Shown here one piece after another: positions 309 through 36,930 of a DNA stretch of 37,195 nucleotides (positions are counted from its first letter, which is position 1; the number at the start of each line of letters is the position of its first letter). The stretch comes from a virus. The position numbers and the translations under genes are program-made. Below the pieces are notes generated by a model, which did no database searches, had not been told where the DNA came from, and was given only the letters and a program-made list of their open reading frames with translations. The DNA is taken from the IMG/VR virus record IMGVR_UViG_3300025073_000108, positions 1-37,195 of that record, one strand, 5' to 3'.

Positions 309-337
309 TTGCATTTGAAAAAGTTTAAGCCTACAAT
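309..337 (+). promoter_or_regulatory. Sigma-70-type promoter for the tmRNA-like RNA
   Basis: TTGCAT (309-314), a 17-bp spacer and TACAAT (332-337). Expected transcription start is about 343-346, that is, at or within a few bases of the first G of the acceptor stem at 346, so the RNA would need little or no 5' trimming. Confidence 0.75.
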
Positions 338-345
338 GTTAATCA

Positions 346-419
346 GGGGGATGAATGGTTCGACAACCTCCAAGCCGGAAGGTCGGGGTTGGACCTGGGA
401 TCGTGACCCAGATCCTCCA
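346..419 (+). ncRNA. tmRNA-like tRNA-like domain without an mRNA-like domain
   Basis: Seen: a 7-bp acceptor stem GGGGGAT (346-352) with ATCCTCC (412-418), including a G-U at the third pair (G348-U416); a stemless D-arm GAATGGTTCGACA (353-365) that differs from the usual tmRNA D-arm by one missing U; a 7-bp stem 364-370 with 385-391 capped by a short GCC/GGT stem with a GGAA loop (374-383); a T-arm with stem CTGGG/CCCAG (395-399, 407-411) and 7-nt loop (400-406); discriminator A419; then six Ts (420-425). Known: G3-U70 with A73 is the alanine identity that charges tmRNA, and tmRNA also has a stemless D-arm. In full tmRNA, pseudoknots and a tag ORF of several hundred nt replace the short middle stem. 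No CCA is encoded. The T-loop is atypical (A54, U58). D-loop GG (357-358) could still contact T-loop UC (401-402). It cannot be a normal tRNA, because the middle arm lacks a 5+7+5 anticodon geometry. Confidence 0.68.
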
Positions 420-442
420 TTTTTTAGTTACTGGAGGGAGCC

Positions 443-36439: not shown

Positions 36440-36676
36440 GTGATTGACGATCCGAGTTTTCGTCTTCCGGTCTTTTACCCTATTGAAAATAAGATATTTC
36501 AATATCAGAAAGTTCTGGATGGTTGGGCGTTCTCCAGCCAGAGAAAGGTGGCGGAAGAGCTGGTCAAAGCTCTGGAGGTGGCGCTGTACTGGAAAAGGCG
36601 GTTTGAACAAGCGGAGGAGTTGTATGGAGGGTTAAAGCTTAAGGAGTTAGAAAAAGTGTCAACTACTCCGCCTTGA
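36440..36676 (+). CDS. Hypothetical protein, 78 aa
   Basis: Start chosen at GTG 36440 behind AGAAGGAGTTCTTGC; the TTG at 36407 lacks a site. N-terminal beta part (FRLPVFYPIENKIFQY) and helical C-terminus. Its stop falls inside the CTCCGCC/GGCGGAG hairpin at 36666-36685, at the left border of the IscB unit. The C-terminus could be truncated or altered by that insertion. Confidence 0.55.
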   Translation: MIDDPSFRLPVFYPIENKIFQYQKVLDGWAFSSQRKVAEELVKALEVALYWKRRFEQAEELYGGLKLKELEKVSTTPP

Positions 36677-36682
36677 AAGGCG

Positions 36683-36930
36683 GAGCTTGAGGAAAACTTC
36701 AGGCTCGGGTTGACCAGGAAAAGCGGTACCCAATCCGCTACGTTGTAGATAGGTTAAAGACCGACGTTGGGATGCTTCCTCAGTTCCAACCTCTCGAAGC
36801 TCCGGTTGCAGACACGCAACAGGGTAAGCACGAAACGGATCGGAGCCTAATGCCGGTCTACAACATTTCCGAGGGGAGAGGTTCGTAAGAACCCGTTACA
36901 AGGCCCGTAAGGGCAATTAAAAGGAGGATG
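36683..36930 (+). ncRNA. Omega (HEARO) RNA of the IscB system
   Basis: Known: IscB uses an omega RNA encoded directly upstream of its ORF. Seen: a dense set of stems ending at the AAAGGAGG of the IscB gene. They include GAGC/GCTC (36683-36706), AGCGG/CCGCT (36722-36739), GTTGTAGA with TCTACAAC over a long range (36742-36749, 36857-36864), GTTGG/CCAAC (36766-36790), GCTCCG/CGGAGC (36799-36846) with inner GTTGC/GCAAC (36805-36820), AACCTCTC/GAGAGGTT (36788-36795, 36876-36883) competing with GGTTC/GAACC (36880-36893), and GCCC-GTAA-GGGC (36903-36914). The 5' end is not defined; the guide would lie just upstream of the first stem. Confidence 0.8.

Follow-up and report, generated by a model that had tools for sequence, protein, structure and literature searches.

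A putative phage tmRNA reduced to the tRNA-like domain and its relatives in other phages

Anatomy of the element at positions 346–419

The DNA analyzed here, referred to as the window, is a 37,195-nt stretch of viral sequence (IMG/VR record IMGVR_UViG_3300025073_000108, positions 1 to 37,195). The source virus is a virus of bacteria, and the PHROGs matches of the window proteins include DNA polymerase, helicase and protease; a similarity search of the window DNA against an annotated phage collection gave no match. In bacteria, ribosomes that have become stuck are rescued by tmRNA. Positions 346–419 hold a 74-nt element with the features of a tmRNA of which only the tRNA-like domain (TLD) is left. 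Its segments follow one another in the order GGGGGAT-GAAT-GGTTCGA-[CAACCTC..GCC-GGAA-GGU..GGGGTTG]-GAC-CTGGG-ATCGTGA-CCCAG-ATCCTCC-A, and its unpaired segment is GAATGGTTCGA. The features of the locus are given below, with the evidence from a relative (L007) and a covariance model (R2), both described in the next section.

309–314, plus strand: −35-like hexamer TTGCAT, below the consensus threshold of the promoter tool; five of six letters identical in L007
332–337, plus strand: −10-like hexamer TACAAT, 8 nt before G346; six of six letters identical in L007
346–419, plus strand: predicted TLD-only tmRNA, from G1 to A73, no CCA encoded; matched by R2, with compensatory changes relative to L007
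346–352, plus strand: 5′ strand of the acceptor stem, GGGGGAT; 7/7 pairs with 412–418, G3-U70 included
353–363, plus strand: stemless D-loop region, GAAT-GGTTCGA, unpaired in the model; GG(T/C)TCGA is common to L007 and most members of the family
364–391, plus strand: single central hairpin in place of the pseudoknots and tag ORF (P2 of seven pairs, inner stem of three pairs, GGAA tetraloop), from the pairing comparison with L007
364–370 and 385–391, plus strand: the two P2 strands; in L007 two pairs are the same, two are changed on both sides and kept, two are changed on one side and kept, and one is broken
395–411, plus strand: T-arm, CTGGG-ATCGTGA-CCCAG, with a loop that deviates from TTCRANY; in L007, three of five stem pairs have two-sided changes that maintain pairing
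412–419, plus strand: 3′ strand of the acceptor stem, ATCCTCC, pairing with 346–352, followed by A419, which corresponds to A73
420–425, plus strand: T run outside the element, a possible terminator tail (a terminator-like site at 397–416 plus the tail); not conserved in L007

The tmRNA consensus letters comprise a GGTTCGA D-loop and a GAC followed by the T-arm, and a G3-U70 pair has a role in recognition by AlaRS. In the window, GGTTCGA occupies 357–363 as a stemless D-loop with the tmRNA consensus, as also found in family members that exceed the Rfam tmRNA threshold, and GAC stands between the central hairpin (CAACCTC/GGGGTTG, enclosing GCC-GGAA-GGU) and the T-arm. The element has in common with the standard one-piece tmRNA (RF00023) the acceptor with G3-U70, the GGTTCGA D-loop, the GAC before the T-arm and A73, but it differs in lacking pseudoknots and a tag message and in escaping detection by that model, whereas several of its siblings score over threshold. 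A tag CDS and pseudoknots are the standard tmRNA criteria, and the 74 nt contain neither. No anticodon arm is present, and no stop codon was found at 364–394 in any frame, so that no tag is possible. This anatomy bears out the preliminary description of the locus, which had proposed a tmRNA-like RNA cut down to the TLD (acceptor, stemless D-loop, T-arm, G3-U70 and A73), with one GGAA-capped stem replacing the pseudoknots and tag ORF, an atypical T-loop (ATCGTGA) and no encoded CCA.

ARAGORN did not call the element in the window. In an Rfam search of the window up to E 10 no family matched it, RF00023 and RF00005 both being absent, and the L007 copy was likewise not called up to E 10. The folding energy alone was unremarkable (z −1.29), with 21 of 200 shuffles folding equally well. 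A descriptor of the anatomy, written after the element had been seen, gave one match in the window and none in 30 Mb of first-order random sequence.

Comparison with a syntenic relative and recognition by a covariance model

A copy identical to the window element is carried by record L006. A diverged copy was found in L007, which was reached by protein synteny (via a protein belonging to that phage group) and not by the RNA pattern; the copy lies at the syntenic position and is identical to the window in 48 of 74 letters. Among the 22 pairs compared, nine had changed and eight of these were kept. Six of the seven two-sided changes were compensatory, and one P2 pair was broken. In a null model in which the changed letters were re-dealt, the pair retention of L007 was matched in 0.17% of trials. 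The tetraloop reads GGAA in the window and GAGA in L007, both conforming to GNRA, and the T-loop, which is off TTCRANY in the window, reads TTCGACT in L007 above a compensated 5-bp T-stem. Conservation of the stems and of G3-U70 in a relative, the absence of which had been named beforehand as refuting, is thus what the L007 copy displays.

The sequences flanking the element gave a mixed picture. A promoter starting transcription within a few bases of G346 had been proposed, and the promoter-like layout (TTGCAT, 17 nt, TACAAT, 8 nt, G346) is supported insofar as the hexamers are kept in L007 while only 5 of the 17 spacer letters are identical; a promoter scan of the window at the consensus threshold, however, found none. 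To that extent the promoter had been over-read. The T-tail had also been over-read, as part of a self-contained unit, because L007 has no T run and continues into a tRNA: a tRNA-Tyr starts 4 nt after A73, where the window has the T run. This tRNA-Tyr lies directly 3′ of the TLD in two relatives (L007:2643-2727 and L039:4479-4563) and is absent from the window.

A covariance model, R2, was built from the RNAs of three other phage records (L018, L023 and L089), the window being excluded. In the window it matched exactly 346–419, with 44.8 bits (E 6.6e-10), the next match scoring 12.1 bits (E 0.44). The L007 copy scored 45.7 bits (E 1.1e-9) and the L007 tRNA-Tyr 13.7 bits. Of the check by tmRNA and tRNA models suggested in the preliminary description, the Rfam half was negative, whereas the model derived from other phages found the element. 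The R2 members were obtained with patterns that share letters with the window, and their likeness to it is therefore partly ascertained. These results bear on the view that the locus is a terminator or a leader structure whose likeness to a TLD is accidental. Such a structure would account for the T run at 420–425, the terminator-like match and the low folding z-score, but not for the E-value of a model taken from other phages, the missing T run in L007 or the lack of descriptor matches in random sequence, and we consider it extremely improbable.

The specificity of R2 was examined in bacteria. A D-loop/T-loop pattern gave at least 80 stretches with at least 82 matches, four of which passed a loose filter, and the best R2 score over the 80 bacterial stretches listed was 24.4 bits. 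On 28 loci with complete tmRNAs or tRNAs, most of them the top-scoring places in over 1,500 genomes, the 3′ parts of tmRNAs scored from 24 to 43.8 bits, tRNA-Ala 33.5–37.4 bits, and tRNA-Glu and tRNA-Met 20–24 bits. These scores show that R2 recognizes the acceptor and T-arm common to tmRNA and tRNA-Ala. Since the 3′ parts of complete tmRNAs reach 43.8 bits, an R2 match shows kinship and not the loss of the tag. The TLD-only assignment consequently depends on further features: the 5′ acceptor strand and GGTTCGA loop present locally, the lack of both an anticodon arm and a message, and the finding of no longer tmRNA. On this basis, we regard it as confirmed, at the level of sequence, that window 346–419 represents a phage tmRNA reduced to the TLD, without a tag message.

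TLD-only RNAs in other phages

The search for homologues proposed in the preliminary description was fruitful: the family comprises 12 distinct sequences in 14 virus records (alignment A6), namely window/L006, L007/L039, L018, L023, L062/L098, L067, L089, L100, L097, L132/L140, L142 and L157/L162. The record of L097 holds two different copies, the second being L132/L140, and L142 and L089 sit in the same record. Members beyond the window's relatives came from pattern scans of viral contigs and from Rfam searches; the D-loop/T-loop pattern applied to bacteria above gave 13 viral stretches, six of which were members. When three members were compared with the annotated phage collection, every match was partial and fell short of 80% query coverage. 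Several members encode CCA.

In two sets of records, of 10 and 13, RF00023 matched end to end and above threshold in seven and two, respectively (51–77 bits, 76–84 nt). The three records missed among the ten were relatives of the window, one of which, L008, does not cover the locus, and most of the 13 were pattern matches without a TLD. The Rfam control search also matched archaeal genomes at E up to 0.001, and for this reason only scores over the cut-off, which 9 of 14 controls reached, were counted. The copy of L089 scored 34.9 bits with the Rfam tmRNA model, which is below threshold, and a tRNA-Glu 23.6 bits. Rfam filters vary between tools, as L067 and L142 passed in one search and were unlisted in another. 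ARAGORN called no gene at the members' places. Thus, TLD-only RNAs are missed by ARAGORN, and the most diverged copies are missed by Rfam.

In A6, 96.8% of the cells of the 18 pairs were paired, and two-sided changes occurred at 14 of the 18 pairs. The two-sided cells numbered 50, against 3–10 in a control in which the partners were slid. All six P2 pairs in the alignment had two-sided changes, with 91.7% of cells pairing. A6 was fitted to the model structure, and discovery had partly relied on acceptor and T-stem pairing and on the letters GG-TCGA and TCCA; members were sought without imposing P2 pairing or Rfam scores. By eye, most members have an A-rich motif (AAAGCC, TAAAG and similar) after the P2 5′ strand, and this motif perhaps makes a tertiary contact.

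All 12 members have G3-U70, including three (L007, L132 and L142) that were found without a pattern fixing U70. Together with the R2 scores of tRNA-Ala, this conservation would fit an alanine-accepting tRNA-like RNA aimed at AlaRS or an alanine-using enzyme, and not at SmpB or the ribosome. We think this quite unlikely, as it accounts neither for the tmRNA-type GGTTCGA loop and the GAC that precedes the T-stem nor for the absence of an anticodon arm and the over-threshold Rfam tmRNA scores of the siblings.

A second model, R3, includes the window, for which its score of 62.2 bits holds by construction. R3 was run over 398, 395, 398 and 346 bacterial genomes, and 8, 37, 35 and 8 places were listed, respectively. 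ARAGORN was applied to 8, 5, 7 and 8 of these (n = 28); 20 places lay in tmRNA genes, three were tRNA-Ala and five had no called gene. Among the uncalled places, L275/L285 (G897), which neighbors terminase and portal genes, contains a good TLD (53.6 bits), and L277 (G864) a weaker one (43.2 bits). L265 (G771) and L266 (G709) were rejected as members, being TLD-like RNAs of another type, and L264 was rejected because by eye it is a permuted tmRNA.

The other TLD-like type of G771 and G709 (L288:5715-5789, L288:9574-9648, L287:7860-7934 and L265:450-524) occurs more than once per genome. It has the acceptor GGGCATG..CATGTCC, with G3-U70 in the copies read, and scores 48–50 bits with R3; L288:9574, a copy with mismatches, reaches 37.5 bits. 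The L288 flanks that were searched are not clearly phage. Separately, L148:6124-6198 is a borderline TLD-like RNA (GGGGCTG/CAGCTCC, CCA encoded, 21.5 bits with R2), and L149 gave no match with R2.

Possible function and genomic neighborhood

Mao 2009 is reportedly the experimental paper on the TLD-only RNA of mycobacteriophage DS6A. DS6A is listed as "TLD only" among tmRNAs (PMC4131195), thereby superseding the statement in the preliminary description that no described tmRNA of this kind was known, and Table 3 of PMC11915505 gives nine "Standard, no CDS" tmRNAs among 97,179 unique sequences. The kind is therefore already known and is rare. It is reported that the DS6A TLD-only RNA inhibits E. 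coli tmRNA, and that a similar molecule inhibits tmRNA in E. coli whether or not it can be charged (PMC4131195, PMC11915505). The window copy differs in that its T-loop is atypical and CCA is unencoded. Mitochondrial tmRNAs without a tag frame (jakobids; RF02544) have likewise kept the TLD and lost the tag, but these are usually permuted genes in organelles, whereas the window has a one-piece phage gene. In the literature covered, which included few subscription papers and no supplements, we found no published account of a broad phage family of TLD-only RNAs (including PMC4131195, PMC11915505 and PMC9004378), and DS6A was the one named phage example.

The main reading, to which we assign a probability of roughly 60%, is that the TLD-only RNA acts as a decoy that damps or redirects trans-translation in the host. 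Transcription would begin at about G346, the transcript would be trimmed and receive CCA from host enzymes, and charging with alanine would be possible through G3-U70. The RNA would then bind host SmpB, and either hold SmpB away from the host tmRNA or enter a stalled ribosome with no message for the ribosome to switch to; in both cases host trans-translation would be damped or redirected during infection. No SmpB gene was found in any of the 11 records given, of which many are fragments, and host SmpB would thus be the partner. The decoy, already put forward in the preliminary description, would agree with the inhibition reported for the DS6A RNA, the one published precedent.

The main rival is a tagless rescue, in which the charged RNA and host SmpB enter stalled ribosomes and the nascent chain is released untagged, helping phage translation. 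The retention of G3-U70 and A73, and the CCA encoded by several members, point to selection for charging, and some help with incomplete mRNAs has been proposed for mitochondrial tmRNAs that lack the tag and occur together with SmpB (PMC11915505). However, without a stop codon there is no obvious exit for the ribosome, the published TLD-only phage RNA inhibits, and CCA is unencoded in the window; we hold such a rescue to be rather unlikely. The lack of a message and stop codon, and hence of tagging, the inhibition of the DS6A type and the lack of smpB in the records together favor the decoy.

With respect to genomic position, head or packaging genes adjoin the RNA or lie no more than about 2.5 kb from it in seven of nine contexts, as a raw count over unevenly covered flanks. 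L018 is flanked by terminase and portal genes, the L132 copy within L097 adjoins a terminase small subunit gene, L062 follows one gene after a terminase-small-like gene, L162 is upstream of a portal gene, L023 is upstream of a major head gene, and in the window group (L039) a terminase large gene is about 2.5 kb off on the other strand. L285, in a bacterial assembly, is upstream of genes for terminase and portal, with a tRNA-Pro/Met/Ile cluster at a distance of 10 nt. L089 has a DNA polymerase processivity factor gene about 1.1 kb away, and L067 a Sak4-like gene about 3.4 kb away. In their proximity to tRNAs, L007 and L285 recall phage tRNA genes, but the members have no anticodon arm and are uncalled by ARAGORN.

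A remnant of host ssrA, either a fossil or an attachment-site copy dating from integration or imprecise excision, would be in keeping with the report that tmRNA genes are common integration sites (PMC11915505). This origin is nevertheless very unlikely, because both ends of the element are present, the stems are kept by compensatory change, two different copies occur in one record, and Phage_integrase (PF00589) was found in none of the 13 records given, of which many are fragments.

More tentatively, and with somewhat less than an even chance in our estimation, TLD-only tmRNAs may constitute a recurrent class of phage RNA that antagonizes or redirects host trans-translation. Selection would have kept them in numerous phages not related to one another, frequently next to tRNA genes or the packaging module and in some cases as two copies, and the window copy would be a far-diverged member unseen by current finders. 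With 12 distinct sequences and strong covariation, phage RNA decoys against ribosome rescue become a directly testable hypothesis, and the members offer natural minimal TLDs for work on SmpB and AlaRS.

Other structured sequences were noted in the window. Positions 1–296 are non-coding and almost unchanged relative to L007, with one difference up to 296. Combined with the upstream sequence of L006 (L006:2985-3310), this region folds better than 100 of 100 shuffles (z −3.25), gives no credible Rfam match and is possibly part of a larger structured RNA. Two related-phage contigs, L248 and L249, end within or beside a strong hairpin (L006:3286-3308, window about 94–116), before the TLD locus. Finally, a HEARO RNA was detected at window 36658–36884 with 116 bits.
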